A stretch of DNA of 64,000 bases. It comes from Antarcticibacterium sp. 1MA-6-2. Lineage in GTDB: Bacteria; Bacteroidota; Bacteroidia; Flavobacteriales; Flavobacteriaceae. This document shows, piece by piece, positions 1-64,000 of this stretch. The translations under genes were made by a program, and so were the position numbers. Each line of letters opens with the position of its first letter. Position 1 is the stretch's first letter. Location of the stretch: positions 3,286,001 through 3,350,000 of the forward strand of contig NZ_CP091036.1 in assembly GCF_021535135.1 (NCBI RefSeq), read 5' to 3'. Under the pieces are notes generated by a model, which was not told the origin of the DNA, searched no databases, and saw only the letters and a program-made list of their open reading frames with translations.

Positions 1-476
1 ATAAAGAATTTATGGATGTCGCTATGAGGTTAAATCCTAAAGATAAGATGATCGTAAAGGGAGAACGCATTGAAAAGTGGGTACTGAGAACCGCTTTTGA
101 AGATTATCTGCCTGCCAGTGTTGCCTGGAGACAGAAAGAGCAATTCTCGGACGGAGTTGGTTACAGCTGGATCGATACTTTAAAGGAAATGGTGAATGCG
201 CAGGTAAGCGATGAACAGCTTAAAAATGCCCACTTCAGATTCCCGGTACAACCACCAAAAAGCAAAGAAGAATATTTCTACCGTTCTATATTTTCAGAAC
301 ACTTCCCAAGCGATGCCGCTGCACTTTCTGTACCTTCGGTACCTTCTGTTGCCTGCAGTAGTCCCACTGCTCTGGAATGGGATGAATCTTTCAGGAATAT
401 GAATGATCCTTCAGGAAGAGCTGTGGCGAATGTACATTCTGAAGCTTATCAAAAAGAAGTTGCCAAGGCTGAATAA
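1..476 (+). CDS. asnB: Asparagine synthase B, C-terminal part (5' end outside window)
   Basis: This is the last ~158 codons of glutamine-hydrolysing asparagine synthetase, the ATP-dependent enzyme that amidates aspartate in the cytoplasm. Reading starts in frame at base 3 and runs to TAA at 474-476. The segment begins with 'KEFMDVAMRLNPKDKM', a conserved stretch of the C-terminal synthetase domain, followed by 'EKWVLRTAF' and the 'ASVAWRQKEQFSDGVGYSW' loop. These are diagnostic for AsnB rather than for other N-type ATP pyrophosphatases. The N-terminal glutaminase domain lies upstream of the window. A strong terminator follows immediately, so this is the end of its transcript. Confidence 0.95.
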   Translation, partial: KEFMDVAMRLNPKDKMIVKGERIEKWVLRTAFEDYLPASVAWRQKEQFSDGVGYSWIDTLKEMVNAQVSDEQLKNAHFRFPVQPPKSKEEYFYRSIFSEHFPSDAAALSVPSVPSVACSSPTALEWDESFRNMNDPSGRAVANVHSEAYQKEVAKAE

Positions 477-497
477 TTTAGTTTTGATATACCTATT

Positions 498-533
498 AAC
501 CTCACAGGTCTTCAAGACCTGTGAGGTTTTTTT
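498..533 (+). terminator. Rho-independent terminator of asnB
   Basis: A 13-base perfect stem (498-510 with 516-528) closes a TTCAA loop and is followed by seven T residues on the plus strand. It lies between asnB and the convergent Omp85-like gene. The T-run is only on the asnB side, so it mainly serves asnB. Confidence 0.9.
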
Positions 534-560
534 ATTAACGAGAATAGGGAAATTTCAGGT

Positions 561-2441
561 TTACTTAAACAAAACAGGTCGGGGTTTCCCGAATTCGAAA
601 TCCTGAAATCCAAAGTCGTTTGTATTAAAAGTGTTCGTTCGGAACAAATTGTTTCCACGACCAGGCATTTCAGGAAAAAATGAGAAGGAGAGCTGGAAAG
701 TATCAAACACCAGGTAATCATTACTTATAATAAAACCTACGCCTATTGAGTTATAGATTTCACTATTAGCAATTTGCCTTTGCTCATCACCAATTGCGGC
801 CATAGTATAGTTGAGGTAAGGGTTTAACCTGAAGCCCCATAAATTCCAGGGAGCATAAAACTGTGTTTGAAGGGTTAGCAGGAATTTTCTCGTACCATAG
901 AGCGAGCTGTGAAAGCCCTGAACACCTATATTGGAAATATCCTCATAATCTGGTCCGTAAAAACCTAAAATATTTCCATGTTCGTTAACCGTGAGCCTGT
1001 CGCCAAACGAATTTAAGCGGTTTCTCCCCCAGATAAGTTGTGGTTTCACAAATTGGCGCATCTTCCAGGTAGGGTTAAGATCAATCAACTTTGTGAAATA
1101 ATTGGCCTGGAAGGAATAGGTAGTTTGTTCGGTTCTCTTGTTTCCTAAATAAGTTCCTGCCTCAAAATTAGTGCTGAGGAAACCCCAGCTAAAATAATCT
1201 CCATAAGCCACACGTCCACCCAGGTATAAGCGGCCATGCCCGTTCTTGCGTTGGTGTCCTGCGGTTATGCCGTAGATCGTGCCTACTGGTACATCTTCAA
1301 TAATCCCATAATTAAAAATATACTGGTCTTCCACATACTGCCTTGAAGTGATTCCAATTCCCGCCAGGTAAAAGGTTTCACCTGAAAAAAATCCAATACT
1401 GTCAAATTCTGCTGAAGGTTTTTCGCGATAATCTACATTGAGCATTCTTGCGGAAGTAATGAGATTGGTTGTGCGATCATCCTGAGTATTTCCTTTAAAA
1501 ATCCGGAAGGAGTGTCCTCCCCAGAAATCGTATGTGTTGTATTTAAAACTCTCCAGTTCCATCTCCTGCAAAGGATTTTGCAAAGAATCTTTCCTGTAGT
1601 GTTGATCCAGATAAATACCTCCTGCCCATCGGGTAAAAGGGGAATAAAAGTTTCTTTCGGCATTAAAACCTTTATAGTAAGATTCATCAATATTTCTTAA
1701 ATACCTAAGGCTTGTTCTTATGTAAGTATTCTTGAGATTAGGTATGGTATAACCCAAATCATAAGCATTATCCCCCTCGTCAAACTTTCGGGTAAAGCGA
1801 GTACGGAATTCGTGTCCTGTACCTGCAAAATTTCTTTCTTTCAGTCCAACCGAAGTATGATCTGGTGAAAAGGATCCTTCAGGAATAATGCTCCAGGAAT
1901 CCAGTACTCTCACCGTTACATCTACAGAATCTCTATTTTTTCCATGGATAAACTGAGGCTTTACAAGGACACTCCTCACATGGGAGCGGGAACGTATTAA
2001 ACGTTCTGACTCTTTGAGCAAAAGAGAGTCCAGGGGAGTGTTTTCCTTAAATAAAAGAAGATCCCGAATGGGAGCGTGATTGGTCTTTTTATGCACTTTA
2101 TTACCTACAGCCTCTGCCCAGTTTCTGGGTTTTGAAACGGTATCATATATTGAATAGCCAAAGGGATCCAGAGTTTGAATAATAATATTCCTAATCACTT
2201 TACCCTGGTATGGCCTAAAATTTATTGACTTCCTTACCCTAATACCGGATCTTTTACTCTTGCTCGTAGGTTTAAAAACAAGATTATGAAGCATTTTAGT
2301 GAACTTCCTTTTTTGAGAAAATTCTTCAATCTTTTTATAAATTTCTACAGAATCCTTTTCTGTTTTATTTTCCTGGGATAATACAGGAAAGATAAAGCAG
2401 AGGAAGAATAAGAAGAAAAAGGAAATTTTTATATATTTCAT
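561..2441 (-). CDS. BamA/TamA-like outer-membrane beta-barrel protein (Omp85 superfamily)
   Basis: The product is 626 aa. A signal peptide (hydrophobic residues 5-20, cut near 'VLSQ') is followed by a region of about 150 residues that resembles a POTRA domain ('KVIRNIIIQTLDPFG', then 'VRSVLVKPQFI', 'VDVTVRVLDSWSI'). A long C-terminal barrel rich in alternating aromatic strands follows, with 'ERNFAGTGHEF' as a typical first-strand motif of the surface-antigen family. The length is shorter than BamA (about 850 aa with five POTRAs), so this looks like a single-POTRA relative found in Bacteroidota rather than the essential BamA. It probably inserts or exports something at the outer membrane; the substrate cannot be told from sequence. 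The frame is uninterrupted. Confidence 0.8.
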   Translation of the reverse strand: MKYIKISFFFLFFLCFIFPVLSQENKTEKDSVEIYKKIEEFSQKRKFTKMLHNLVFKPTSKSKRSGIRVRKSINFRPYQGKVIRNIIIQTLDPFGYSIYDTVSKPRNWAEAVGNKVHKKTNHAPIRDLLLFKENTPLDSLLLKESERLIRSRSHVRSVLVKPQFIHGKNRDSVDVTVRVLDSWSIIPEGSFSPDHTSVGLKERNFAGTGHEFRTRFTRKFDEGDNAYDLGYTIPNLKNTYIRTSLRYLRNIDESYYKGFNAERNFYSPFTRWAGGIYLDQHYRKDSLQNPLQEMELESFKYNTYDFWGGHSFRIFKGNTQDDRTTNLITSARMLNVDYREKPSAEFDSIGFFSGETFYLAGIGITSRQYVEDQYIFNYGIIEDVPVGTIYGITAGHQRKNGHGRLYLGGRVAYGDYFSWGFLSTNFEAGTYLGNKRTEQTTYSFQANYFTKLIDLNPTWKMRQFVKPQLIWGRNRLNSFGDRLTVNEHGNILGFYGPDYEDISNIGVQGFHSSLYGTRKFLLTLQTQFYAPWNLWGFRLNPYLNYTMAAIGDEQRQIANSEIYNSIGVGFIISNDYLVFDTFQLSFSFFPEMPGRGNNLFRTNTFNTNDFGFQDFEFGKPRPVLFK

Positions 2442-2540
2442 GCTTTATACAGGGAGCAAAAGGTTTAGGGCGATCTTTGCCGGAAATAAATTAATAAAAA
2501 TAGATTTAAATATGAGTTAATGAAACGGCCATCTATTTAC

Positions 2541-6357: not shown

Positions 6358-7262
6358 ATGCTCAGAATCGCCTACCACACAATCTACAAACATCCTTTAC
6401 CGGAAGGTCACAGATTTCCAATGGAAAAATATGAGCTGCTGCCGAAACAATTATTGCACGAAGGCACCTGTACGCCTGAAAATTTCTTTGAACCTGAACT
6501 TAGCTGCCGATGAACATATTCTTGCTGTTCATACTGCGGAATATTTACAGAATTTAAAGGAGCTTACTGTTAACCCCCGGGCCGTTCGAAAAACAGGTTT
6601 TCCTCTTTCTGAAGCTTTGGTACAAAGGGAAATAATTATTGCCGGAGGAACCATTAAAGGAGCAGAACTTGCTTTGAAAAATGGGATTGCATTAAATATA
6701 GCGGGAGGTACCCATCATGCCTATTCGGGTCACGGTGAAGCTTTTTGTTTGCTGAACGATCAGGCAATAGCCGCGAGATTTCTTCAGAAAAACAACTTAG
6801 CGAAAAAAATTCTCATTGTAGATCTGGACGTACATCAGGGAAATGGAACTGCAGAAATTTTTGAAGGAGATGATTCTGTTTTTACCTTTAGTATGCATGG
6901 GAAGAATAATTATCCATTTAAGAAAGAAACTTCAGATCTTGACATTCCTCTCCCTGATGGTACTTAGTGACGCTGAATATCTCAAAATTCTCAAAAATAT
7001 CCTGCCGCAGCTTATCCAGGAACAAAAGCCGGATTTTATTTTCTACCTGAGCGGAGTAGATATAATTTTAACAGATAAACTGGGGAAATTGGGTTGTACT
7101 GTAGACGGCTGTAAAGAAAGAGATCGTTTTGTATTGGAAACTTGCCGCGATCATAGTATTGCGGTTCAGATAAGTATGGGGGGAGGTTACTCTCCGGACA
7201 TCAGGACAATAATTGAAGCTCATTCCAACACTTACAGATTGGCGAAGGAACTTTATTTTTAG
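6358..7262 (+). CDS. Histone-deacetylase/AcuC-family hydrolase (two RCCGGY scars)
   Basis: Zn-dependent deacetylase of the arginase/HDAC fold, 300 aa after repair. The start 'MLRIAYHTIYKHPLPEGHRFP' (ATG 6358) is typical of the bacterial family. Motifs in order are 'AGGTHHAYSGHGEAFC' (two active-site histidines), 'ILIVDLDVHQGNGTAEIF' (zinc ligands D and H), 'FSMHGKNNYPF', and 'YLSGVDIILTDKLG', the usual place of the third ligand (D). Two breaks occur. At 6498-6504 ACTTAGC replaces ACCGGC, giving 'FFEPEPAADEHIL'. At 6962-6968 ACTTAGT replaces ACCGGT, restoring the conserved 'PLPDGTGD'. With both repaired the gene has exactly 301 codons. The natural substrate is unknown; such enzymes deacetylate small amines or protein lysines. 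Confidence 0.9.
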
Positions 7263-7375: not shown

Positions 7376-10156
7376 ATGAAGAAGCTAACAGTCCTTCTGG
7401 TGTTGCTTGTGTTCTGCTTTCAGGAACAGAATGCTCAAAATTTTAAGGCAGATGATATCAATATCGAGTACGAGCGATTTGTTCTGCCCAATGGTTTAAA
7501 ACTCCTGGTTCACGAGGATCCAAAGGCTCCTATAGTAGCCGTAAACGTTTGGTACCACGTCGGTTCTAAAAATGAGAAGCCGGGGAAGAGTGGTTTTGCA
7601 CATCTTTTTGAACACTTGATGTTCAATGGGAGCGAAAATTTTAATGATGATTACTTTCAGGCGATAGAAAGAATTGGGGGAACTGATGTGAACGGAACAA
7701 CCAACGTAGACAGGACCAATTATTTCCAGAACGTCCCGGTGTCTGCCCTCGACCAGGTTCTTTTTCTGGAGTCAGACAGAATGGGGCATATGCTGGGTGC
7801 CATTACTCAGGAGTTGCTTGATGAGCAGAGGGGAGTGGTACAAAACGAGAAGCGACAGGGAGAGAATCAACCATATGGTCAACAGTGGAATTATCTTACC
7901 CGTGCTCTTTATCCTAAGGGTCATCCATATTCCTGGACAGTAATTGGAGAAATGGAAGATCTAAATGCAGCGACTTTAGAAGATGTTCAGGAATGGTTCA
8001 AATCTTATTACGGTGCTGCAAATGCTGTCATTGCAATTGCTTACGACATAAAACCGCAGGAGGCCTATGATAAAGTACTTAAGTATTTTGGACATATTCC
8101 CCCGGGACCCACCATCGAGCGGCAGGAGAGAAATATACCTGAACATGGAACGGACACTTACCAGGTTTATGAAGATCGCGTTCCCGAAAGCAGGGTTCTT
8201 TTTGCCTGGAACACTCCTGAATTTGGGACGCGACAGGACATTCATATGGATCTTATAGCCGGAATATTAAGTAGTGGAAAGAATTCGCGGCTTTATAAGA
8301 AACTTGTTTACGAAGATCAAACAGTGGGTTATGTAAATGCTTATCAGGCTTCTGCGGAAATTGCCAGCAGATTTATTGTTTCTGCTAATGTTAAACCTGG
8401 AGAAGATGTGGAAAATGTAAGAACTACTCTTTTAGCTGAAATTGAAAATTTGATAAATAATGGACCTACAGAGGCTGAACTAAAGCGGGTAAAAGCCGAA
8501 TACTTTGCAAATTTTATAAAGGGAATGGAAAGAATAGGTGGTTTTGGAGGAGTAAGCGACATCCTTGCTTCTAATGAAACTTATTTTGGCGATGCTTCTT
8601 ACTATAAAACGGTTCTGGAATATGCCGAAGAAGCAACAGCAGAAGATCTTAAAAAAACTGCTCAGGAATGGCTAACAAAAGGGAAACACACACTTATAGC
8701 AAATCCATTTCCTGATTATACGGTAACTCCTTCAACATTAGACCGCTCCAGCTTACCTGAATTAGGAGTGGCCAAAAGCAGTAAGTTTCCTGAAGTAGAA
8801 CGTGCAAAACTTTCTAACGGAATGGAAATCGTTCTTGCCAGAAGAGAAGGAGTTCCTACCATTGCTATGAATTTAATGTTCAACGCAGGCTATAAAACTG
8901 ACCATCTGTCTAAACCCGGAACAGCAGCCCTGGCAATGAATTTACTGGATGAAGGCACTAAAAATATGGATGCCCTGGAAATAAGTGAAAAACTGCAATT
9001 ATTAGGAGCCGATCTATATACAGGGTCTGACCAGGATATTTCATCTGTAGGAATGAGTACCTTAAAGCCAACCCTGGATGAAAGTCTCAGTTTGTTGGCA
9101 GATGTTGTTCTTAACCCTGCTTTCGATGAGAAGGAATTTCAGCGATTAAAAACAGAACAACTTAACGGTATAAAACGGGAGAAGTCACAGCTTAAGTGAC
9201 AATGGCATTAAGATCAATGAATAAATATTTATATGGAGAAGATCATCCTTATGCCAACCCTTACACCAGTAGTGGCTATGAGAGTACTGTGGAAAATTTG
9301 ACAAGGAAAGACGTGGTCGATTTTTATAACACCTGGTTGAAACCAAATAATGCAACATTGGTTGTGACAGGAGATGTGACTATGCAGGAACTGAAATCGA
9401 AATTAGAGAACTCCCTTAAAAATTGGAAGAAAGGTGATGTTCCCAATATTACTTTTAATGAACCCAAGCAGGCATCCGGAAACACTCTTTATCTAATCAA
9501 CTTACCGGAGTCACAACAGACTGTAATTATAGCAGGTCACTTAACAGAAAAGTACGGAGACTTAAATGAACTGGCGGTAGAGCAAATGGTGAGCATCCTT
9601 GGTGGAGAATTTACCTCCCGTATCAACATGAATTTGAGGGAAGATAAACATTGGGCTTACGGAGCGAGCGGATTTGTAATGAACGCGCAACAGGAGAGGC
9701 CTTTTATATTATATGCCCCCGTACAAACCGACAAGACTGCAGAGTCTATCGTGGAGCTCAAAAAAGAAATTGAAGAATTTATTACTTCCAGGCTTAGCAA
9801 CACAGGAGGAGCTTGATAAAGTGAAGACGAACAAAGTACTTGCACTTCCCGGCCAGTGGGAGACAAATTCTTCCGTCAACAGTTCTCTTTACAACCTTGT
9901 AAAGTACGATCTTGATGACGACTATTATCAGAGTTATGATGCTAATGTGAGGAATCTGCAAATAGGAGATTTACACGAGGTGAGTAAGATGGTGGTTAAG
10001 CCGAAAGAAATAAACTGGTTTGTAGTGGGAGACAGGGCAAAAATAGCGTCCAAATTGGATGAACTGGGATTTGATTCTATTATAGAAATAGATGCTGATG
10101 GTAAACCTCTTACTCCTGCTGTTAAGAAACAGGATGTGCCTGATCTTAAAAATTAG
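7376..10156 (+). CDS. Secreted M16 family (insulinase-type) zinc peptidase (two RCCGGY scars)
   Basis: The repaired product is 925 aa with a signal peptide (residues 1-20, 'VLLVLLVFCFQEQNAQ') and two M16 halves. The active half carries the inverted zinc motif HxxEH in 'HLFEHLMFNGSENF' and the downstream glutamate region 'EQRGVVQNEKRQGENQP'. The second half ('RAKLSNGMEIVLARREGVP') lacks it, as usual. The frame is broken at 9190-9197 (GCTTAAGT for GCCGGT, giving 'REKSQPVTMALR') and at 9792-9798 (GCTTAGC for GCCGGC, giving 'SRPATQEELDKVK'). Both repairs match the family. It probably degrades peptides in the periplasm. A weak hairpin follows the stop. Confidence 0.9.
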
Positions 10157-14223: not shown

Positions 14224-15488
14224 ATGCGTCAGTTAATTATTAAAATTCCAAAGGGGCACAAGGAAGAGGTTAACAAGATTGTAAAGAAATATGAAGGTAA
14301 AAACACCTTTAACCTATCCAGTGAAGAGGGAGACGTTTTTTATATTTATTTGCCAAACCAAAAGGTTAATGATTTCCTGAAGGAGATTGATGAATTTGAA
14401 AAACCTGAGATCACCCTTATTCCGAGGGGGGTGATTTCTTTATATCCGCTTAAGATCTGATTCTCCCGACCAGGTAGCTGATGTGCAGCCAAAAAGTTCG
14501 CTTGAGATTTATCTTGGTGGGATCCAAAGTGTGGGTTCTATGTTCGGACTTTTCGGCTATTCCTTTGTGGCGGGAATTATTGTGTGGATCGGTTTGTTCA
14601 CCTCAACTTCATACCTGTTAGTTGCTGCTATGTTAGTTGCTCCATTTGCAGGCCCTGCGATGAATGCAGCGCTGGCGACTGCTGCGGGAAAATTAGATCT
14701 TCTAAAAACCAGTCTTGCCAGATATGCACTTGCAATATTCACAGGAATTTTAACAAGCTTTTTATTGACACTCCTGTTTCCTCTCAATACTTTAACTCCT
14801 CTAATGGAGCAGGTGAGCCAGGTGTCGAAATTCGCCTTATTTCTACCTATAATTTCAGGATTTGCAGGAGCGATTAATATTTGTCAAAGTGAACGGGACA
14901 GCCTTGTATCTGGTGCTGCGGTAGGAATTTTAGTTGCAGCTTCTCTTGCCCCGCCTGTGGGACTCGTGGGTATTGGTCTTTATATGATGGACTGGCTTAG
15001 TTGTATTCAGTAGTCTTTTCAGGATAGCTTTACAGTTGTTAGGAATCCATTTGGCCGCTACTCTGGTGTTTTATTTCTACGGAAAAGTAACTCCTAATGG
15101 AGTACGATTTCTAAAAGGAAGCAAAAAGGCCGGAATTATTACCACTTTGGTCGTTGCCGTAGGAATAGGCGCTATGATGTTCTGGCAATTTAATCAGCCG
15201 CCTTACCTTAGGAAGGCCAGTATGAATACCGAACTTGCCAAAGTTTTGACTAAAGAGCTGAATAAGCTGGAGTACATTAAAGTTTTAAGTAAGGACGTAA
15301 CTTTTACTAATGAAATGATTGATGACCGCTCAATAGCAAAATTTGAGGCTACTTTACTTCCAAAAGATACCTCTATAGGGCAGGAAGAATTGAAATCTTT
15401 AGTAATAGATCATCTGAAGGAGAATATGAAATATCCGTACAGGAATGATATATATGAAGTATTTCAGATTAATGTAGTTACAGATTGA
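14224..15488 (+). CDS. DUF389 (TIGR00341) membrane protein (two scars)
   Basis: After repair the gene has 421 codons. The N-terminal ~75 residues form a soluble domain ('RQLIIKIPKGHKEEVNKIV'). Several membrane segments follow ('SYLLVAAMLVAPFAGPAMNA', 'ILTSFLLTLLFPL', 'GILVAASLAPPVGLVGIGLY'), with the proline/alanine-rich DUF389 signature, and then a C-terminal soluble part. Breaks are at 14449-14455 (CTTAAG, probably GCCGGC, giving 'LYPPAS-DSPDQVADVQP') and at 14995-15001 (GCTTAGT for GCCGGT, giving 'MMDWPVVFSSLFR'). The function of the family is unknown. It is followed by another membrane gene on the same strand. Confidence 0.8.
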
Positions 15489-42063: not shown

Positions 42064-43815
42064 TTATAATTTTACCTGTAGGTGCAATTCCTTTAGTTGG
42101 GCCTCTTCCAGGCGGGCAGGGGCATCGATCATTACATCTCTTCCCGCATTATTTTTTGGAAAGGCAATATAATCCCGTATTGTTTCCTGGCCTCCAAGAA
42201 TGGCTACAAGCCTGTCAAAGCCAAAAGCGATTCCTCCATGGGGTGGTGCTCCAAATTCAAAGGCATTCATAAGAAAGCCAAATTGCTCTTTAGCTCCTTC
42301 AGGAGTAAAACCTAAAAAGTCAAACATTTTCGCCTGCGTCTTTTTGTCGTGTATCCTTATAGAACCACCACCAATTTCATTACCGTTAAGAACAAGATCG
42401 TAAGCATTGGCCCGTACAGAACCTGGTTCTGTTTCCAGTAATTTTACATCTTCAGGTTTTGGTGACGTGAACGGGTGGTGCATAGCATGAAATCTGGAAG
42501 TCTCTTCATCCCATTCCAACAATGGGAAATCTACTATCCACAGAGGTGCAAAGGTGTTAGGGTCTCTTAGACCTAGTTCAGTAGCCAAGTGCATTCTCAG
42601 AGCACTAAGTTGCGATCTGGTTTTTGCTGTTTCGCCAGCCATTACGAGAATAAGATCTCCGGGTTTAGCTCCTGTGGTATTAGCCCATTCTTTAAGATCT
42701 TCTTCAGAATAAAATTTATCTACAGATGATTTAAGGCTGCCATCTTCGTTGTACTTTGCCCAAATAAGACTTAGTGGCACCAATTTGAGGCCGTTTTACC
42801 CATTCAATTAATTTATCAGTCTCTTTCCGGGTATAGGAAGCAGCTCCGGGAACTGCAATTCCAACTACAAGTTCCTGTTGATCAAATACATTAAAACCTT
42901 TGTTTTTAACCAGATCATTTAATTGGGCAAACTCCATCCCAAAACGAATGTCCGGTTTGTCATTTCCATATTTTTCCATGGCTTCAGCATAGGTCATCCT
43001 TGGAAATTCTTTTACTTCTAATCCTTTAATTTCTTTTAAAAGATGTCTGGTGAGACCTTCAAAAGTTTTCAGGATATCTTCCTGTTCCACAAAAGCCATT
43101 TCGCAGTCTATCTGGGTAAATTCCGGTTGACGGTCTGCGCGTAGATCTTCATCCCTAAAGCATTTGACGATCTGGAAATACTTGTCCATTCCGCCTACCA
43201 TCAACAGCTGTTTAAAAGTTTGTGGAGATTGTGGGAGTGCATAAAATTGACCTTCATTCATCCGGCTTGGCACCACAAAATCCCGGGCTCCTTCGGGAGT
43301 GGATTTTATAAGGTAAGGCGTTTCCACTTCGATGAATCCCTGTTGAGATAGGTAATTTCTAACCTGCATTCCAACTTTGTGCCGAAACATAAGGCTTTCT
43401 TTTACAGGATTTCTTCTAATATCCAGATAGCGATATTTCATTCGCAGCTCCTCACCACCATCAGTTTCATTTTCAATTGTAAACGGAGGGGTGAGAGAAG
43501 GATTTAAAAGATTAAATTCTGAAACTAAAATTTCCACATCTCCTGTTGGCATCTGTGGATTTTTTGACTGCCGCTCTATAACCTCTCCTTTCACCTGGAT
43601 GACATATTCCCTCCCAAGTTCTACAGCTTCTTTTAGCATTGCTGCAGGAGTTCTTTCTTCATCAAAAATTAATTGTGTCACCCCATACCTGTCCCGGAGA
43701 TCTACCCACACCATAAATCCTTTATTTCTAATCTTTTGGACCCAACCTAAGCAAGAGTAACTTTCTCCCCAATGTTGGTACTTCTCAATTCCCCGCAGGT
43801 ATGACTTCTATACAT
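42064..43815 (-). CDS. aspS: Aspartyl-tRNA synthetase (two RCCGGY scars)
   Basis: The essential class II synthetase, 582 aa after repair. The N-terminal OB fold starts at ATG 43815 ('[19 protein letters not shown]'). ACCTAAGC at 43745-43752 should be ACCGGC, restoring '[20 protein letters not shown]'. Class II motifs follow: motif 2 in '[20 protein letters not shown]' and motif 3 in '[15 protein letters not shown]'. The second scar, ACTTAGT at 42769-42775 for ACCGGT, restores '[20 protein letters not shown]'. As written the enzyme would be split in three, which is not viable, so the breaks cannot be real mutations. An imperfect hairpin (42034-42057) follows the stop. Confidence 0.96.
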
Positions 43816-50261: not shown

Positions 50262-51628
50262 TTAATTATTAGGAGAATATTTGGTGGTGTCCAGCAGGTT
50301 CTCCAGAGTCGCTTTTGTTGTTATTACATTTAACATGGATTGTAATAATTCCTGTTGAGCATTAAAAAGCTGCCGTTGCGCTTCACTTAATTCAAAGCTG
50401 GTGGCGAGTCCCTCAAAAAATTTGATCCTGTTTTTGTTTTCAATCCTCTCTGCCAGTTCCAGATTTCTTTTTAGGGTTTCGTAATTTTCCAGACTGTATT
50501 CATAGTCGTTTCTTGCTGCATTGATATCAAGCCGAATTCTGTTTTCGGTTTCATCAAGTTCTAAGAGAGCCTGTTCATATTCAATCTGCATTTGCTGGGT
50601 TCTTGCTCCGCGCATTCCGCTGCTGAAAATTGGAATATTAAGGCTTACTCCAAGAATGGACTGTGCAAAATATTCCTGATCACTATTGAAGAAGGTGAAT
50701 TTTCCACTATAGGCCTGTGCACCGTAATTGACAAAAGCAGTAAGCGAAGGCAGGGCTTTTGCCTTTTCCAGCCGAACAAAAATGCGGGCGGCTTCGGCAT
50801 TATTGGCAGCTATCCTGTAATCAATATTTTCCTCGACAGGTATTTCCTTGGAGAGGAGAGCGAGGTCGTAATATTTCATTGCGACAACATCCAGATCTTC
50901 ACTCAGTTTTATTTCAGTATCTACAGGAAGACCCAAAGTGTGGGCAAGCATTTCATAAGAAATCTCCAGCATTCTCTCGCTGCGGTTTAAATTGTTCTGT
51001 AAACCGAGGAGAGTGATTTGCAATTGTTCCACGTCTTCCTCTTCAGCAAAACCATTTTCAAAAATCTTTTGGGTGTCACTGTAATTCTTGTCCACAGTCT
51101 GGAGGTTTTTCTTCAGGATTTGAACACTTTCTTCAGCTAAGAGTACATTAGCATAAGCAGAAACAATAGCCTCTTTTACAGATTGATCTGTCTTGGTTTT
51201 GGCATTTCTGGAAATTGCTAAAAGAGTTTGAGCTGATTGGACACCTACAATATAAGAACCGTCAAAAATTAATTGGTTCCAGGTGGCGGTGCCTCCAAGA
51301 TTTTGTTTCGTTCCAAATCTCACTTAAGCACAAAAGTTCCTGGAGCACCTCCGGCAAGTTCAGCTGGCAAAAGGGTAACAGGTTGTTTTAAAAGGTTTTG
51401 ATAATCAACATTGGCACTTATTTGCGGCAAACCCTGGGAAATGATTTCCCATTTTTGTTTCAGGGCTTTTTCTACTTCCTTTCCGGCAATTTGAGAGGTA
51501 TAATTATTTTGAAGACCTAAAATAATTGCTTCTTCCAGGGATAAGGTATAGGAGCTTTGAACATCCTCTTCCTGTGAAAACATTGTAAAGGAAAACAGGA
51601 GAGTAAAGAATAGAAATACTTTTTTCAT
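50262..51628 (-). CDS. TolC-type outer-membrane efflux protein (one RCCGGY scar)
   Basis: The product is 454 aa after repair. It has a signal peptide ('KVFLFFTLLFSFTMFSQ') and two OEP repeats rich in coiled coil ('LSLEEAIILGLQNNYTSQIA', 'ELSEAQRQLFNAQQELLQSM'). The break at 51322-51329 (plus ACTTAAGC for ACCGGC) splits 'GAPGTFVPVRFGTKQNLGGT'. The start codon directly follows the TetR stop (TAAATG), so the regulator and pump are translated from one message. Confidence 0.92.
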
Positions 51629-52253
51629 TTAATCTTCAAGGGTTAAGATTTCATTTAGTGTTTGTAGGCCTTTGGGAGTTACAATGGCACGCAGGTGATA
51701 CTCGAGAAATTTTTCGGTTAGATCCTTTAGCGGAAACTGGTCAACTGGGAAAAAATCAGAATTCTTTATGCTCATCATTCCCATAAAGTAGATCTTACTA
51801 ATAAATTCTACGGGTATGGAGGACTGAGTAAAGACCGTCGTCTATACCTTTTTTCAAATTGTCGGCAAGGCTGCAGTGCATCATTTCGGAATGATTTTCC
51901 TGAACTTCCTGGTAGACCTTTGGGTAATATTTATTTAATTGATACTGTGGTGAAGATTTCTCATCCTTTAAATGATTCATTACAAATTTCTTTATTTCAT
52001 AAAGCTCTACAATGGGATTGTTTTCTCTGGCCTTGATGTTCTCAATTCCCTGCTCTATTGATTTAAGGATGTAAATAGTGGTGGCCTGCACCAGTTTGGT
52101 TTTCGTGGAAAAATTCGCGTAAATTGTCTTTTTTGATATTCCCATTTTATTGGCAATCTCGTCCATAGTGACGCTTTTGAAGCCAAAAGTCAAAAACATA
52201 TCTGCCGCAGTACGTATTATATCTTCTTTCATTTTCAATTTCTGAGGGCGCAA
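51629..52253 (-). CDS. TetR family regulator, first gene of the efflux operon (one RCCGGY scar)
   Basis: The product is 207 aa after repair. The N-terminal helix-turn-helix is 'RTAADMFLTFGFKSVTMDEI' followed by 'ANKMGISKKTIYANFSTKTK', the classic TetR signature. The C-terminal ligand-binding domain is cut at 51823-51829, where ACTGAGT stands for ACCGGT; repair gives 'GLYRSSIPVEFISKIYFMGM' and a stop at 51629. It probably represses its own operon and is released by a pump substrate. The 112-base upstream region (52254-52365), shared with the polyprenyl synthetase gene, would hold the operator. Confidence 0.9.
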
Positions 52254-52365: not shown

Positions 52366-53341
52366 ATGCTTTCTATATCTGAATACCGTGATGTTTTTGA
52401 AGATCACATGAATAAGAAGATCACTTCTAAAGAACTTAGTGAATCTTTATGAGCCAATGATCTATATTTTAAATCTGGGAGGCAAGAGACTAAGGCCTGT
52501 CCTAACTTTAATGGCTGCAGAAATCTTTGATTGTTCTCACAAAAAAGCTTTGGATGCAGCTTTAGCCATAGAAGTATTTCACAATTTCTCCCTTGTCCAT
52601 GATGATATTATGGATGATGCCCCTTTGAGAAGAGGCAATGTCACAGTACACGAAAAATGGGATATTAATACAGGTATCCTTTCCGGGGACGCAATGCTCA
52701 TTAATGCTTACCAGCTATTCGAAAATTATGACGGTCCGGTATTTAAGGAATTGGCACAGTTATTCAGCAGGACGGCAATTAAAGTTTGTGAAGGACAGCA
52801 GTATGATGTTGATTTTGAAGCGCGGGATAATGTGAAGATAGGAGAGTATCTTAAAATGATCGAATACAAAACGGCAGTACTCGTTGGTGCCTCACTACAA
52901 ATGGGAGCCATAGTTGCTGAAACTACCGGAGAATGTAAAGAAGCGGTTTATGAATTTGGAAAATTACTGGGAATAGCCTTTCAATTGCAGGATGATTACC
53001 TGGACGTATTTGGTGATCCTGAGTCTTTCGGGAAACAAATTGGAGGGGACATTATAGAAAATAAAAAAACCTTCCTCTATTTAACTGCACTGGCAGAAGC
53101 AGATGAATTACAGGGAAGACAACTGGAGCATTTGTATTCCATTAACCCGCCTGAAACTTCAGGAAAAATATCAGCTGTAAAAAGCATTTTTGAAAGCAGT
53201 GGAGCTTCAAATCTGGCAAGGAAAGAAATTGAGAAATATACTACTTTGGCTTTTGAAGTTTTAGAAGGAATAGACATCCCGGCACACAAAAAGGAGCTTC
53301 TTCGAAATTTTGGATTGTTACTAATGAACAGGAAGGTTTAA
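52366..53341 (+). CDS. Polyprenyl synthetase (trans-isoprenyl diphosphate synthase), one RCCGGY scar
   Basis: The product is 324 aa after repair, starting at ATG 52366 ('MLSISEYRDVFEDHMNKKIT'). The two aspartate-rich Mg2+ sites are 'LVHDDIMDDAPLRRG' (first, with the trailing R-R) and 'FQLQDDYLDVFGDP' (second). 'GGKRLRPVLTLMAAE' is the substrate-binding GKR motif. The scar at 52434-52440 (ACTTAGT for ACCGGT) restores 'SKEPVNLYEPMIYILN'. It makes a C15-C20 or longer prenyl diphosphate for quinones or carriers; chain length is not clear. Its last bases overlap the convergent OMP gene by four. Confidence 0.92.
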
Positions 53342-53887
53342 AAATAAATACTTACAAAAGGCATAAAGGCACTTCCATAGAAACTTTTTTCATCGTCGTG
53401 CAAGAGGTTATAACGAACCCCGGTAACAACTAAGCCCGGCATTATATCCTAATCCTACAAACAGAGCGGGAACCCAGGATTGTTCTTTCATACTGCCGCC
53501 ATCAAATTCATACCGCGTGTTAATATTTAATTGTTCATATTCCGCAGATAGCTGAATAGCCTGAATTGGCCTGAACATTCCAATGACACTTCCCCCAAAA
53601 CTTGTGGCTTTATAATTCCTTTGAGAGGCATAAGCTCCACTTATGCCTACACCTGCAGAAAAATAAGAATTGAAATCATAAACTGCAGAAGGTGCAAGAG
53701 CGCCAGTGAAATTCCCATTTCCAAAAGATAATCCTAAACTTCCTCCCAATCTTACCTGATCCCAGAAGTTAGAAGGATTTTGAGGATTCTTCTCTATGCC
53801 CTGAGCCTTTATCTGTGAGTTTGAAATTATTAAAAACAACAAAAGAAAAAAAACTTTGGGATTAATGAAATTTAGTGCTTTTGTCAT
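53338..53887 (-). CDS. Small outer-membrane beta-barrel protein (one RCCGGY scar)
   Basis: The product is 182 aa after repair. The signal peptide ends 'NSQIKAQG'. The mature part alternates polar and aromatic residues in strands ('RLGGSLGLSFGNGNFTGALA', 'YFSAGVGISGAYASQRNY') and ends in Phe ('MPFVSIYF'), the usual signal for outer-membrane insertion. The break at 53429-53435 (ACTAAGC for ACCGGC) gives 'GYNAGPVVTGVRYNLLHDDE'. Without the repair the barrel loses its last strands. The function is unknown. Confidence 0.82.
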
Positions 53888-53997: not shown

Positions 53998-56780
53998 ATG
54001 GATAGATTCTCATTTCTTAACGCCGCACATACATCATTTTTCGCCGATCTTTATGAACAATATCTGGAAAATCCTGACAGCGTAGAACCAAGCTGGAGAG
54101 CATTTTTCCAGGGATTTGATTTTGGACAAAATGGCCTCTCTTCTTCAAATGGAGAAGCAAGGGAAGAGGTAATTGAAAATGCAGTCGATGGAGAGTATTG
54201 CGCGCCACAACTACAAAACCTTGAAAAAGAATTTAAGGTTATAAAACTTATCGAAGGTTATCGCACAAGAGGGCATTTGTTTACTCAAACAAATCCTGTG
54301 AGGGAGCGAAGAAAATATTCCCCTACCCTGGATATTGAAAATTATGGATTATCACAGGGAGATTTAGATACTGTATTTAATGCGGGGGAGGTTATTGGTA
54401 TTGGTTCTGCCACTTTAAAGGACATTATTACCCACCTGTCCAGGATCTACTGTCAATCCATTGGAATTGAGTATATGTATATTCGTAAACCCGAAGAAAT
54501 TTCCTGGATCCAGGATAAATTAAATATCAACGATAATCAGCCTGATTTTACTGCTGAGCAAAAAAAGCTCATCCTTAAAAAATTAAATGAAGCTGTTTCG
54601 TTTGAGAGCTTTTTGCATACGAAATACGTGGGTCAAAAGAGATTTTCCTTAGAAGGAAATGAAAGTTTAATTCCGGCGTTGGATGCTATTATAGAAAAAG
54701 CTGCAGATGTAGGAGTGCGTGAGTTCGTAATGGGTATGGCTCACAGGGGAAGATTAAACACCCTTACCAATATCTTTGGTAAAAGTGCGAAGGACATATT
54801 TAGTGAATTTGATGGGAAAGATTACGAGCAGGATATTTTTGATGGGGACGTAAAATATCACCTTGGATGGACTAGTTGCAGGAAAACCCGTAACGGTAAA
54901 GAAATTAATATAAACATAGCGCCCAATCCTTCTCACCTGGAGACCGTAGGTCCGGTTGTAGAAGGAATTACCCGTGCAAAACAGGACAGGCGGTACAATG
55001 GAGATAATTCTTCAGTTTTGCCTATTGTAGTGCATGGAGATGCTGCAATAGCAGGACAGGGAGTTGTCTATGAAGTCATACAAATGGCTCAACTGGAGGG
55101 TTACCAAACAGGAGGTACTATTCATATCGTGGTAAACAACCAAATTGGATTTACCACCAATTACCTGGATGGCCGCTCATCAACTTATTGTACAGATGTT
55201 GGAAAGGTTACTTTATCTCCTATCCTTCACGTAAATGCTGATGATGCAGAGGCTGTTGTACACGCGGCTTTATTCGCACTGGATTTTAGAATGAAGTTTA
55301 AGAGAGACGTTTTTATTGATCTACTTGGCTACAGGAAATATGGGCATAATGAAGGTGATGAACCAAGGTTTACTCAACCTAAGCTTTATAAGGCTATAGC
55401 TTCACATGAAAATCCCCGCGATATTTATGCTGAAAAGCTTATCAAAAGTGGAGTTATTGATAAAGATTATGTAGGTAAGCTTGAAGAAGAATACAAGGCA
55501 AATCTTGAAGAAAATCTGGAAAATTCCCGTAAAGAGGACAAAACCAAAATAACTCCCTTTATGGAAGACGAGTGGGAAGGTTTTGAAAATGTAGAGGAAG
55601 ACCAAATGATGGAATCTGTAGATACTACTATAGATATTCAAAAGCTGGATGAGATTGCAGAAGTAATTACCCAACTTCCGGAAGACAAAAAGTTTATGCG
55701 CAAAATCGCGAAACTTATTGAGGGCAGGCATAGTATGTATTTTGACAATAATCAACTGGATTGGGCCATGGCAGAATTACTTGCTTATGGAAGTTTGATG
55801 CTGGAAGGTTATAATGTGAGGATGAGCGGTCAGGATGTGGAAAGAGGTACTTTTTCTCACTTAAGCATGCTATTGTAAAAGTCGAAGACAGTGAAGAAGA
55901 AATTATTCTTCACAACAACATAAAGAATAAAAAAGGAGATTTCAGGATATACAATTCGCTACTTTCAGAATATGGAGTGGTAGGTTTTGATTACGGTTAT
56001 GCAATGGCCAGCCCTACAACTCTTACTATTTGGGAAGCGCAGTTTGGTGATTTCGTCAATGGTGCCCAGATTATGCTGGATCAATACATCTCGGCCGCTG
56101 AAGATAAATGGAAACTGCAAAATGGATTGGTGATGTTTCTGCCGCACGGATATGAGGGTCAGGGAGCAGAACACTCTTCGGGAAGAATGGAGCGTTTTCT
56201 TCAGTTGTGTGCTACAGATAATATGTATGTGGCAGATGTTACAACACCTGCCAACATGTTTCATTTACTTCGCAGGCAGATGAAGGTGAAATTTAGAAAG
56301 CCTTTAATTATATTTACTCCAAAAAGTTTGTTGAGGCATCCAAAAGTTATTTCTACAAAAGAAGACTTCGCCCAGGGTAGTTTCCAAACTCTAATAGATG
56401 ATTCGCAAGCTGAAGTTAATAAAATAAAATCCCTGGTATTTTGTACAGGTAAATTTTATTATGACCTTCTTGAGCACCGTGAAAAGATTGGAAGAGATGA
56501 CGTGGCTCTAGTGAGGGTAGAACAATTATTTCCATTGCCCTGCGATAAGATGAAGGAAATGATAGATAAATATAAAAATGCCGATGACCTGGTATGGGCG
56601 CAGGAAGAACCAAGGAATATGGGAGCCTATAGTCATTTGTTACTTCACTTTGATGAAGCTAAGAACTTTAGGGTGTGCAGTCGAAGATTTTATGGGTCCC
56701 CTGCTGCAGGTAGTGCTGTAAGGTTTAAAAAACGTCACGAAAAGGTAATTGAGAGCGTTTTTGATAAGACAATGGTTTAA
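53998..56780 (+). CDS. sucA: 2-Oxoglutarate dehydrogenase E1 component (one RCCGGY scar)
   Basis: The product is 926 aa after repair, the normal length. It is a thiamine-diphosphate enzyme of the TCA cycle that decarboxylates 2-oxoglutarate. The E2-binding N-terminus is 'YEQYLENPDSVEPSWRAFFQ'. ThDP landmarks are 'EFVMGMAHRGRLNTLTNIFG', 'HGDAAIAGQGVVYEVIQMAQ' (GDA...) and 'VVNNQIGFTTNYLDGRSSTY'. The break at 55859-55866 (ACTTAAGC for ACCGGC) restores 'DVERGTFSHRHAIVKVEDSE'. It is cotranscribed with sucB, 66 bases downstream. Confidence 0.96.
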
Positions 56781-56846: not shown

Positions 56847-58123
56847 ATGGCTTTAGAAATGAAAGTTCCTTCTCCCGGAGAATCTATTACAGAAGTTGAA
56901 ATTGCTCAATGGCTGGTAAAAGATGGAGATTACGTAGAAAAAGATCAGGCAATTGCAGAAGTTGATAGTGACAAGGCAACGCTTGAATTGCTTAGCGGAG
57001 GCAAGCGGAATAATCACCCTTAAGGCAGAAGAAGGTGACGCAGTGGCCGTTGGCCAGGTGGTTTGTATCATTGATACAGATGCAGCAAGGCCTGACGGGG
57101 GAGGAGATGCAAAAGAAAGTGCTGAAAAAGAAGTTACCGAGGAGCGAGAAAAAACAGAATCTAAGGCTGACAGTAATAAAGCTGAACCAAAAACTGAGAC
57201 CCCTTCTAAGTCTTCAACTCCTTCTCAAAAACAGGATAAGACTTACGCTACAGGAACTCCGTCTCCGGCAGCAAAGAAAATTCTTGATGAGAAAGGGATA
57301 GACTCAAAATCGGTTAATGGAACAAGCAGAGATGGTAGGATTACGCATGAAGATGCGGTGCAGGCAAAAGCTTCAATGGGAACTCCCGGTCGCGGAAAGA
57401 GAGGGGAATCCCGTAAAAAGATGTCAATGCTTCGCCGAAAGGTGGCAGAGCGTCTTGTAAGTGCAAAGAATGAGACGGCCATGCTTACCACTTTTAACGA
57501 AGTAGACATGTCTGCCATTTATTCTTTAAGAAAACAGTACAAAGACCAGTTTAAAGATAAACATGGTGTTGGATTAGGTTTTATGTCCTTTTTTACTTTA
57601 GCAATTGTTAGAGCACTTGATCTATTTCCCGATGTGAATTCTATGATTGATGGGGATTTCCAGGTGAAGTACGACTTTAAAGATATTAGTATTGCTGTTT
57701 CAGGACCAAAAGGTTTGATGGTTCCGGTAATAAGAAATGCTGAAAATCTTGGATTCCGGGGAATTGAAGATGAGGTAAAGCGATTGGCTTTAAGAGCACG
57801 TGATGGACAAATTACAGTAGATGAGATGACTGGTGGGACCTTTACTATTACAAATGGTGGAGTGTTTGGATCCATGTTATCTACGCCTATTATTAATCCA
57901 CCCCAAAGTGCAATTCTTGGAATGCACAACATAGTCGACTTAGCCTGTTGCAATAGATGGACATGTGGAGATAAGACCTATAATGTTCGTTGCATTATCT
58001 TATGATCACAGGATCATTGACGGTAAGGAATCTGTAGGTTTTCTGGTAGCTGTAAAAGAAGCTCTTGAAAATCCGGAAGAATTACTAATGGATAATGATG
58101 TAAAAAGAGCTTTGGAGCTTTAA
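56847..58123 (+). CDS. sucB: Dihydrolipoyl succinyltransferase, E2 of 2-oxoglutarate dehydrogenase (two RCCGGY scars)
   Basis: The product is 424 aa after repair. The lipoyl domain has the lipoylated Lys in '[11 protein letters not shown]'. A charged linker, the E1/E3-binding domain ('[20 protein letters not shown]') and the catalytic domain ('[20 protein letters not shown]', His motif '[11 protein letters not shown]') follow. Scars are at 56990-56996 (GCTTAGC for GCCGGC, giving '[16 protein letters not shown]') and at 57938-57944 (ACTTAGC for ACCGGC, giving '[20 protein letters not shown]'). Without repair both the lipoyl and the catalytic His segments are cut off. Confidence 0.96.
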
Positions 58124-58386: not shown

Positions 58387-58826
58387 TTATTTGAGGTAGA
58401 GAGACTTATTCTTGTAATCAATTACTGCCTTTCCTTTTTTAAGAATATCAGCACCAATGATTCCGTGAACTTTTTCAGCTTTATGATTTAGGAGAGCTTC
58501 GTTGACGTGAGTGAGATCAAAAAGGACCAGGTCTATTTTTTTCTTTTTCCAGCCCTTAATTTCAATATTATTTTGTTGTGCTATTTGGGTTAACATGTTA
58601 GTAGCACCTGAGCACCAGCTGCCCTGATATCGCTGTCTTCGGCCAGAAGTTCAAAATGCTTAACCGCTTCAAAGCCTACGCACGAGCTGGAGGCTCCTGT
58701 ATCTAATATGAAATTACCTTCAATTTTATTGATCTTTGCCACCAGTTCGAAGTGGTTCGTCTCGGTGTAATTTAGTTTAATGCGATGGTAGCCTTTAGCT
58801 ATCAATAGCTTCTTTAAAGAGGACAT
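58387..58826 (-). CDS. Retropepsin-like aspartyl protease (one RCCGGY scar)
   Basis: The product is 145 aa after repair, starting at ATG 58826 ('MSSLKKLLIAKGYHRIKLNY'). The active-site motif D-T-G-A is in 'GNFILDTGASSSCVGFEAV', and the second hydrophobic-hydrophobic-Gly element is 'KVHGIIGADILKKGKAVIDY'. One domain means it must dimerise, as retropepsins do. The break at 58606-58613 (ACCTGAGC for ACCGGC on the plus strand) restores 'IRAAGAGATNMLTQIAQ'. Soluble, no signal. The substrate is unknown. Confidence 0.85.
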
Positions 58827-60841: not shown

Positions 60842-61857
60842 AATTTTACTTATTTATACTTATGGTACCATTGGTATGATCAAAGATTTTGAAACGGGTG
60901 CTTTAAAAGCTTTTAACTTTAGTGAGCTTTTGCAGAATATCCCTGAGTTAAAGCTTCTGGAGCATACTATAGATACTGTAAGCTTCAAAGAACCAATTGA
61001 TTCTTCAAATATGAACCCTGTTTACTGGGTATCACTTGCCCGGATAATAGAGGAGCGATATGAGAAATATGACGGTTTTGTGGTTTTGCACGGCAGCGAT
61101 ACCATGTCGTATTCTGCAGCTGCTCTAAGTTTTATGTTTGAAGATCTTACCAAACCTATTATTTTCACCTAAGTTCCCAATTACCAATTGGAGATTTAAG
61201 GACTGATGCTAAAGAAAATCTTATTACCAGTATCCAGATCGCCGGATTACAAAAGCAGGGGAAACTTAGGTTATCTCTGAAGTTGGTTTATATTTTGAAT
61301 ATAAACTTTACAGGGGAAACCGAACCACTAAATTAAATGCGGAACATTTTCAGGCTTTTTCCTCTCTTAATTATCCTGCTTTGGTAGAATCTGGAGTATA
61401 TTTATCTGTCAATTATAATGCACTTTGGAAGACGAACAGGAGGAGAAAAACAAAATTACATACAGAACTTAACGAAGATGTTCTAATTTTAAAGATGTTT
61501 CCGGGCATAAATGAGCAAACGATTGATCATATTCTCTCGAGAAAAAATTTAAAAGGGGTTATTTTGGAAACTTTTGGAAGTGGAAATGCCCCTACCGACA
61601 AATGGTTTATTAAAATTTTAAAAAAATATATTTCCCGCGGATTGGTGGTAGTAAATGTCACTCAATGTATAGCAGGAAGTGTCTCAATGGGTCAATATGA
61701 GACAAGTACGCAACTAAAGAAAATAGGAGTGGTGTCAGGAAAAGATATCACAACTGAAGCAGCAGTTGCAAAATTGATGTATCTTTTGGGGAAAGAACTG
61801 TCACCAGAGGTTTTTAAGACAATTTTTGAAACTTCCCTGCGTGGGGAAATGTTATAA
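60825..61857 (+). CDS. ansA: L-asparaginase, type I cytoplasmic (three RCCGGY scars)
   Basis: The product is 342 aa after repair. The catalytic Thr motif TGGTIG appears as 'ILLIYTYGTIGMI'. ACTTAT at 60858-60863 stands for ACCGGC, so the Tyr is an artefact of unchanged length. The second Thr is in 'VVLHGSDTMSYSAAALSFMF'. Two more scars, ACCTAAGT at 61167-61174 (for ACCGGT, 'IIFTGSQLPIGDLRTDAK') and ACTTAGGT at 61264-61271 (for ACCGGT, 'QGKPVISEVGLYFEYKL'), add four bases, which matches the observed frame change. 'ILETFGSGNAP' and 'NVTQCIAGSVSMGQYETS' close the site. It hydrolyses asparagine to aspartate. Confidence 0.93.
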
Positions 61858-62881: not shown

Positions 62882-62893
62882 GAGCAATAAACT

Positions 62894-63333
62894 ATGACCA
62901 TTCATAAAATCTTAAAATATCTGGCACTCGTTATTGGTGTGATAGGTCTTATCCTTCTGGGTAGGATTATTATGACTTACGATGATGCTATAGAATCCTC
63001 TGCTGCGACCCAGCAAAGTGTAGTAACTCCATTTCTCTGGCTGGCCTATATAGTTATGGCAGTGATCCTGGTGCTTGTTATATTCTTTGTTATTAAAGGT
63101 CTGTTTAGAGGAAATATTAAAAACACGCTTATTTCAGTAGGTGCATTCTTACTTATTGTAGCAGTAGCTTACGTGCTTTCTGATGGAACTCAGAAAACAT
63201 TAAAGGATGGAGAAATTCTATCGGCCAGTACTGATCATTGGGTTGGTGCTTAAGTTTGATTACTTTCTATATCCTGGCTGCAATTGCGGTAGGTGCAATG
63301 GTAGTCTCCGGAATAAGGAAACTAATTAAATAA
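62894..63333 (+). CDS. Membrane protein of the exbBD cluster (one RCCGGY scar)
   Basis: The product is 145 aa after repair. Spans: 'YLALVIGVIGLILLGRIIMT', 'LWLAYIVMAVILVLVIFFVI', 'LISVGAFLLIVAVAYVL', and after repair a fourth, 'GLITFYILAAIAVGAMVVSG'. GCTTAAGT at 63248-63255 stands for GCCGGT and creates a false stop at 63253. With repair the protein continues to 63333, eight bases before exbD, ending 'IRKLIK'. The placement between exbB and exbD suggests an accessory subunit. The family is unnamed to me, but the position seems common in Flavobacteria. Confidence 0.78.
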
Positions 63334-63340
63334 TACTATT

Positions 63341-63949
63341 ATGGCAAGAAGAGCATCACCAGAAGTTAATGCCGGGTCTATGGCCGATATAGCATTCCTG
63401 CTATTGATTTTCTTCCTGGTAACTACAACCATTGAGACAGATCGTGGGATAAGCAGGAAACTGCCTCCTATCCCAGAAGACAATGTTGTACCGCTTATTA
63501 TTAAACAGAAGAACATCTTTACTGTTATTGTGAACAGAAATAATGAGCTTCTTGTTGAAGAGGAAGTAATGGAACTTTCTGCTCTACGTCAGGCAGCAGT
63601 TGAATTTCTAGATAATGGTGCCGGAACAGGTGAGGAGGCATGTGATTATTGCCAGGGACCGAGAGATCCCGCATCTTCAGATAATCCTGAAAAAGCAATT
63701 ATCTCGTTGGTGAACGACCGAAAAACGGAATATAGAACTTATATATCTGTTCAAAATGAATTGGTTGCAGCCTACAATGAGTTGAGGAACCGTGAGGCTC
63801 AAAGGCTTTATGGAAGAAGTTTCCAGGAAATGGAGGCTCAGTACAATGATCCTAATTTTAGAGGTGATAGAGAAGCTTTAGGAGAGAAGATCGATATTGT
63901 TAAAGAAATGTATCCTCAAAAACTATCTGAAGCAGAGCCAACAAGTTAA
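63341..63949 (+). CDS. exbD: ExbD/TolR family protein 1
   Basis: The product is 202 aa. The membrane anchor with the proton-carrying Asp is 'EVNAGSMADIAFLLLIFFLV'. The periplasmic domain follows with an insertion that includes a Cys pair ('CDYCQGPRDPAS') and a long helical tail ('YNELRNREAQRLYGRSFQEM'). It is longer than classical ExbD (about 140 aa) but typical of Bacteroidota. A second exbD begins 12 bases downstream. Confidence 0.92.
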   Translation: MARRASPEVNAGSMADIAFLLLIFFLVTTTIETDRGISRKLPPIPEDNVVPLIIKQKNIFTVIVNRNNELLVEEEVMELSALRQAAVEFLDNGAGTGEEACDYCQGPRDPASSDNPEKAIISLVNDRKTEYRTYISVQNELVAAYNELRNREAQRLYGRSFQEMEAQYNDPNFRGDREALGEKIDIVKEMYPQKLSEAEPTS

Positions 63950-63961
63950 AAGAGAAGAATT

Positions 63962-64000
63962 ATGAGTAAATTTAAAAAGAAAAAGAGCGGAGAATTGCCT
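63962..64000 (+). CDS. Start of a second ExbD-like gene (cut by window end)
   Basis: ATG 63962 opens 'MSKFKKKKSGELP', the basic start usual for the second ExbD of Bacteroidota, 12 bases after the first exbD. Only 13 codons are visible, so identification rests on position and this short match. Confidence 0.6.
   Translation, partial: MSKFKKKKSGELP

Follow-up and report, generated by a model that had tools for sequence, protein, structure and literature searches.

Near-complete loss of RCCGGY from an Antarcticibacterium genome assembly points to a modified DNA motif misread in the consensus

The hexanucleotide RCCGGY (R, A or G; Y, C or T) is a known target of bacterial restriction and modification. 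The restriction endonucleases Cfr10I and Bse634I cut R/CCGGY (PMC4652773), and VchM is a methyltransferase that produces 5-methylcytosine (5mC) at the same motif (PMC4654547). The genome of Anabaena variabilis ATCC 27893 encodes M.AvaIX, an enzyme specific for RCCGGY, and 5mC in this motif was detected in that strain in work that used MspJI, which requires a methylated C in CNNR (PMC8112702). Errors in nanopore consensus sequences are described as concentrating at methylated or otherwise modified motifs (PMC6591954; PMC10687267). Here we analysed a 64,000-nucleotide stretch (the window) of Antarcticibacterium sp. 1MA-6-2 (assembly GCF_021535135.1, contig NZ_CP091036.1, forward-strand positions 3,286,001 to 3,350,000), in which every RCCGGY is missing and genes are broken by frameshifts. 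We put at roughly 93% the probability that RCCGGY is methylated in this host by a C5-cytosine methyltransferase of a horizontally acquired restriction-modification (R-M) system, and that the missing sites are a consensus base-calling artefact from native nanopore reads.

Under this proposal, the Gillisia-like Flavobacteriaceae chromosome would carry a Type II R-M system, probably gained by horizontal transfer, whose C5-cytosine methyltransferase would methylate RCCGGY, probably at its first C. Reads of native DNA were most likely obtained by nanopore sequencing and assembled with a base-caller and polisher untrained for the mark, so that the consensus at nearly every RCCGGY would have become a stereotyped wrong string (R-CTTAG-Y, R-CTAAG-Y, R-CTTAAG-Y, R-CCTAAG-Y, R-CAG-Y and others); in many cases, the string exceeds the site by 1-2 nt or falls short of it by 1 nt. 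The resulting frameshifts would lie in the file, not in the cell. The identity of the mark as 5mC, the base of the motif that carries it, its assignment to the particular methyltransferase named below and the platform are inferred. The first C is a guess, made because the requirement of MspJI for a methylated C in CNNR fits the first and not the second C of RCCGGY, and nanopore sequencing is suggested because this type of error has been described for Dcm and other motifs.

The window contains 189 CCGG tetranucleotides, which fall into YCCGGR (75), YCCGGY (65), RCCGGR (49) and RCCGGY (0); at a mean of 63, the Poisson probability of finding no RCCGGY is 4e-28. The initial annotation of this DNA had claimed that no intact RCCGGY was left in the window while YCCGGY and RCCGGR occurred by the dozen, as the counts bear out. 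Its wider statement that every RCCGGY is destroyed is exact for the window, but 62 intact sites remain genome-wide, about 1.6% of the roughly 3,808 expected by scaling from the other CCGG classes in a 384-kb sample. A normal genome-wide count, which the same annotation had named as evidence that would speak against it, was thus looked for and not found. In the single contig of 4,383,004 bp, ACCGGC and GCCGGT together occur 19 times against 1,038 for the same words reversed, ACCGGT 42 times against 904, and GCCGGC once against 199. The 384-kb sample, composed of the window and 16 of 20 sampled stretches (the other four having been placed on known survivors or dropped by choice), holds 6 RCCGGY sites, whereas the other CCGG classes average 334.

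The loss is also specific. In a 6-mer scan of both strands of 455 kb (the window plus all 20 stretches), ACCGGT was found 12 times against 77 expected, GCCGGC 0 against 57 and ACCGGC 12 against 66, and among the ten most depleted words listed, members of RCCGGY were the only ones below one-fifth of expectation. The same three words were barely depleted in the stretches of relatives (z of -0.2, -1.0 and -2.1, respectively). The errors are confined to one motif, apart from 3 of the 22 supported frameshift sites described below, with its loss seen genome-wide and altered strings, hereafter scars, proven in the window and in one repeat. The rRNA gene stretch contains no RCCGGY-type CCGG and is uninformative here. 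The scan also showed GTTAAC to be enriched in the 455-kb sample (182 against 115 expected, both strands; at expectation in relatives); we saw no extended context around it, 14 of its 91 sites fall in the window, and it has no bearing on the RCCGGY question.

Among the genomes compared, the depletion is confined to the present assembly. ACCGGC was searched in 30 other genomes, 15 of them of the same genus, and all 15 contain 355-2,421 copies on both strands; the present genome has 19. Of all 30, the two with the fewest copies (31 and 44) are 1.9 Mb genomes of other families whose controls were likewise low (96 and 70).

To locate the scars, we used a frameshift-tolerant alignment of the window with proteins from 48 loci of Gillisia and neighbouring genera. 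This census gave 32 merged frameshift sites, 22 of which were backed by at least two relative loci, although the loci are not wholly independent, as a single genome may contribute more than one. Seventeen of the 22 supported sites lie on R...Y strings of 5 or more nt, compared with 2.1% of random places, and 19 lie on scar strings when RCAGY is counted, compared with 16.9%; the list of scar strings was drawn from the earlier finding and from strings already seen, and is therefore not independent of the window. All 19 proven scars insert or drop bases. In the 44-64 kb part, the window has 12 sites supported by at least three loci, whereas nine of ten relatives have none in the equivalent region. 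The exception, Gillisia marina CBA3202, has three such sites, perhaps sequencing errors of its own, and three further control loci (L027, L030 and L032) have 3, 1 and 2 sites, respectively, with fewer than three loci. The 22 example coordinates given in the initial annotation all hold the strings it described. Fifteen of them are frameshifts backed by at least two relative loci and two (14995 and 37118) by one, while 9190, 16704, 17756, 20830 and 52434 show no frameshift in the census. Four supported sites (45640, 51823, 53429 and 61264) were added to that list.

We also aligned the window at the nucleotide level, from about 42.6 kb onward, to 80 relative loci, which gave 481 relative rows with RCCGGY and good flanks (561 unfiltered). 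The window keeps the class in none of these rows, has CCGG with other flanks in 72 and is altered in length in 65. Class kept and length changed were 81 and 8 of 391 rows for YCCGGR, 16 and 35 of 414 for RCCGGR, and 90 and 33 of 427 for YCCGGY. The majority of the 481 rows are ordinary substitutions at such divergence.

The consequence for coding sequences is clearest in aspS, which encodes aspartate--tRNA ligase (window 42064..43760, minus strand, right end approximate). The gene is split by the scars ACTTAGT at 42769..42775, a frameshift relative to 19 relative loci, and ACCTAAGC at 43745..43752, a frameshift relative to 23 loci, with RCCGGY in two aligned relative rows. In a profile search, its pieces match positions 36-351 and 356-587 of the 590 of NF001750. 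Five other matches to the aspS model in the genome score at most 59 bits against a cut-off of 374 and presumably represent other class II synthetases, which leaves the split gene as the only strong copy. The genes for the E1 and E2 components of 2-oxoglutarate dehydrogenase are likewise cut.

A tandem repeat outside the window shows the same site in many spellings. Tandem Repeats Finder (TRF) reports 13.9 copies of a 220-bp unit, with a match of 97%, at contig positions 2400726-2403787 (L013:5726-8787), probably within the gene of a repetitive protein. The first site in the unit reads GCTAAGT in 7 of 14 copies and takes seven other spellings in the remaining 7, eight in total; judged from the fixed flanks, its true sequence would be GCCGGT, which no copy spells. 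The second site reads ACCGGC in four copies, ACCCGC in three and ACAGC in three, with ACTGGC, ACCAGC, ACTCGGC and ACCGGA in the others, of which the ACCGGA copy could be a genuine variant. Complete copies, 13 in number, have lengths of 219, 220 or 221 nt, and setting both sites to 6 nt brings every one of them to 219 nt (73 codons). At the remaining variable columns, copies differ by single bases, if the truncated end of the last copy is disregarded. These copy-by-copy differences in spelling indicate a consensus unable to settle on a modified site, not mutation. A base-calling error at a modified RCCGGY, as proposed in the initial annotation, is thus supported by the genome-wide depletion, the split aspS and the repeat.

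A single enzyme in the genome matches the C5-cytosine methyltransferase family PF00145 (E 5.9e-48, 164.4 bits against a cut-off of 22). It is a protein of 394 aa (P0002) encoded outside the window, at contig positions 3944957-3946141 on the minus strand, and its translation contains GGPPCPDF and ENVKGL, which we take to be the PC and ENV motifs. PF01555 had no match in the genome in a profile search that covered these two methyltransferase families only, and an N4-cytosine or N6-adenine methyltransferase was set aside as the author on this ground. Any PF00145 match was found in 5 of 16 genomes of the genus, the present one included. The methyltransferase gene overlaps the downstream gene of a 359-aa endonuclease (P0001), which matches the PADLOC model REase_II PDLC03534 at 6.9e-132, appears as PF27126 in one listing and has 2,132 homologues. 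In its predicted model, of moderate confidence (predicted template modelling score 0.46), the C-terminal half resembles restriction endonucleases in a general way only, and Cfr10I is not among the 50 structural matches listed. With genes for Vsr (PF03852) and an integrase (PF00589) upstream, the region looks like an acquired island. It lies at contig positions 3943900-3947493 and also holds a 76-aa frame of unknown kind, and its integrase is phage-type.

Sequence comparison places the methyltransferase in a clade paired with Cfr10I-type endonucleases. A tblastn search against plasmids returned 518 records, and in the two best, plasmids of Nostoc HK-01 and Moraxella osloensis, the methyltransferase gene adjoins that of a Cfr10I/Bse634I-family endonuclease; the third-best match, from Rhizobium, has 48% identity. 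Both partner endonucleases match PF07832; for the one from Moraxella, there is also a match to Cfr10I (1cfr) at 6.9e-96. The methyltransferase is 53-54% identical overall to its Nostoc and Moraxella counterparts, with 50 of 70 and 52 of 70 residues identical in positions 256-325, taken as the target-recognition region; for the N-terminal part, the corresponding figures are 98 of 198 and 101 of 198. The C5 methyltransferase P0221 of Trichormus variabilis ATCC 29413, which we infer to be M.AvaIX, is 56% identical over 375 residues and 54 of 70 in the same region. Eight other C5 methyltransferases of the genus share 5-12 of these 70 residues in seven cases and 37 of 70 in one (L108, genome G013). 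The latter enzyme is 37% identical overall to the present one and, judging by this likeness, may share part of its specificity. The initial annotation had predicted an RCCGGY-specific methyltransferase in the host, and the one PF00145 enzyme, which falls in the Cfr10I-paired clade and is more alike in the target region than in the N-terminal part, is a good candidate.

Several observations weigh against the proposal. The cognate endonuclease P0001 does not belong to the Cfr10I family: it has no PF07832 match and no BLASTP match to the Moraxella and Nostoc partner endonucleases at E up to 10. Three of the 22 supported frameshift sites (51888, 59499 and 63339) carry no scar string, and 35 of the 55 R...Y strings of 5 or more nt in the window show no detected frameshift; some of these will be natural sequence, and others will fall in parts poorly covered by relatives. 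Roughly 390 sites are missing from the 455 kb, clearly more than the excess of the commonest strings there, and the difference would have to come from in-frame misreads and a wide range of spellings. The excess of listed strings was rejected as an estimate of site number, giving too few with a broad spelling and an uneven background. Finally, the errors emphasised in PMC10687267 are mismatches and not gains of 1-2 nt. At 59505, near the scar-less frameshift at 59499, we observed that five relative rows align RCCGGY, with GCCGGT in the four shown.

The mark itself may differ from plain 5mC. About 98% of expected sites fail and all 19 scars change length, unlike mismatch-type errors, and for this reason we allow a slim chance that the product of the C5 methyltransferase is processed further, or enlarged, into another cytosine modification.

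The alternative that fares best, though we regard it as improbable, keeps the artefact and assigns the mark to another enzyme: a methyltransferase that belongs to neither PF00145 nor PF01555, a phosphorothioation system, or an enzyme encoded on a replicon absent from the contig. The search of the genome for methyltransferases covered two families and the completeness of the assembly is 97.25%, which leaves room for such an author; yet the one C5 methyltransferase found is of the expected clade, with 50, 52 and 54 of 70 residues in positions 256-325 shared with the two Cfr10I-paired enzymes and P0221.

It is considerably less probable that the lineage has truly lost RCCGGY by restriction-site avoidance, through selection or deamination of 5mC. 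An R-M system is present in the genome, and under-representation of the motif is reported for most cyanobacteria with an ortholog of the RCCGGY methyltransferase DmtD (PMC4390886). However, a methyltransferase search of 395 genomes of the order (E up to 1e-80) found four carriers, the present one included, and the three others have normal numbers of ACCGGC, the only word counted there: 616, 1,600 and 636 in G113, G146 and G380 against controls of 859, 1,442 and 667. These three share the gene order, with the methyltransferase gene overlapping the endonuclease gene, at 63-66% identity for the methyltransferase and 76-80% for the endonuclease, which matches the same PADLOC model. Avoidance does not produce frame-breaking insertions in aspS and other genes, and deamination would yield RCTGGY and RCCAGY, neither of which is clearly in excess. 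Real mutations or pseudogenes, as in a decaying genome, are the least credible explanation and hardly worth entertaining: the frameshifts are genuinely in the file, but 19 of the 22 supported ones lie on one motif class, near-identical repeat copies carry eight spellings at that motif, and the only strong aspS copy is split, in agreement with the argument of the initial annotation that essential genes are hit and that the scars are hence no mutations.

Returning to the misreading of methylated RCCGGY, the surviving sites are consistent with it. We read 58 of the 62 (all except those at 4056465, 4094033, 4184689 and 4307977). Their flanks are AT-rich, with G or C at position -1 in 11% against 30% at YCCGGR sites, and A occupies the R position in 82% (strands pooled); ACCGGT accounts for 42 of the 62 survivors. 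This bias fits a context-dependent base-caller for which certain contexts are still called correctly, although some survivors may be genuinely protected sites. Four of the 58 belong to one repeat unit. Five intact RCCGGY sites lie within 11 kb at contig positions 875518-886812, a stretch of higher GC content (0.425).

The remaining scars are spread over the window. Two of them, ACTTAGC at 6498..6504 and ACTTAGT at 6962..6968, interrupt a histone-deacetylase-like gene, each as a frameshift relative to five relative loci, and the frame pieces match parts 28-188 and 207-285 of PF00850. Three peptidase genes are affected: an M16 peptidase gene by GCTTAGC at 9792..9798 (two loci; PF05193 at window 9196-9816), an M28 peptidase frame (PF04389), close to its end, by ACCTAGC at 33894..33900 (five loci), and an M13 peptidase gene (PF05649) by ACCTAGGC at 35761..35768 (six loci). 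Among transport genes, ACAGT at 45640..45644 falls at the end of a resistance-nodulation-division (RND) permease frame (three loci; RCCGGY in 13 relative rows within the same 12-nt bin), and ACAGC at 46979..46983 cuts an RND permease gene into two frames corresponding to the N and C parts of NF033617 (31 loci; RCCGGY in one relative row). The gene of a TolC-type outer membrane protein (PF02321, with TIGR01844 below its cut-off) carries ACTTAAGC at 51322..51329 (27 loci; RCCGGY in three relative rows). A probable TetR-type regulator gene, which matches several TetR-type NCBIfam models below cut-off, carries ACTGAGT at 51823..51829 (30 loci), and ACTAAGC stands at 53429..53435 (11 loci).

In the gene of the 2-oxoglutarate dehydrogenase E1 component, the frame ends at 626 aa and matches positions 10-616 of the 919 of NF006914; the scar is ACTTAAGC at 55859..55866 (34 loci; RCCGGY in two relative rows). 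A sucB-like gene (NF004309) is hit by GCTTAGC at 56990..56996 (33 loci; RCCGGY in three relative rows), and ACTTAGC at 57938..57944 also falls in a sucB-like gene (32 loci; ACCGGT 4 nt off in three relative rows). Further frameshifts lie at ACCTGAGC (58606..58613; 31 loci, RCCGGY in seven relative rows), ACCTAAGT (61167..61174; 22 loci, six rows), ACTTAGGT (61264..61271; 22 loci, ten rows) and GCTTAAGT (63248..63255; 21 loci, one row). Probable scars are GCTTAGT at 14995..15001 and at 37118..37124, each a frameshift relative to one relative locus only, and ACTTAGT at 52434..52440, which aligns to RCCGGY in three relative rows and shows no frameshift.

By our estimate, about 3,700 sites in the genome record would be wrong, making sound genes look like pseudogenes and passing false frameshifts on to users of its proteins. 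The scars can also be regarded as a fossil methylome, in that they indicate the motif from nothing more than the finished sequence, and the artefact in the file probably reports a DNA modification in the cell. With one C5 methyltransferase found in the genome, they further suggest RCCGGY specificity for this family of R-M systems, composed of the methyltransferase and a PDLC03534/PF27126 endonuclease with no detected sequence relation to Cfr10I. Extended to further single-contig assemblies, such a scan could propose specificities on a large scale.

Compared with known systems, the methyltransferase shares a clade with those of Cfr10I/Bse634I-type R-M systems, with the likeness peaking in residues 256-325, whereas its partner endonuclease belongs to an unrelated family (PDLC03534). 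VchM, M.AvaIX and DmtD act on the same motif, VchM and DmtD being likened here by motif and not by sequence; VchM is described as an orphan, whereas the present enzyme has an overlapping endonuclease gene and an upstream Vsr gene. The class of artefact is already known and the RCCGGY instance is new. As in the nanopore errors reported at Dcm CCWGG sites (PMC6591954) and at GCAGC/GCTGG in Listeria (PMC10687267), one modified motif is affected genome-wide and the errors persist after consensus and polishing; in Listeria, they accompany a methyltransferase-encoding defence system in four of five low-quality strains (PMC10687267). In contrast to these cases, the motif affected here is RCCGGY, the loss reaches about 98% of expected sites, the 19 proven scars alter length and break reading frames, and both the motif and its likely enzyme were inferred from the finished sequence alone.

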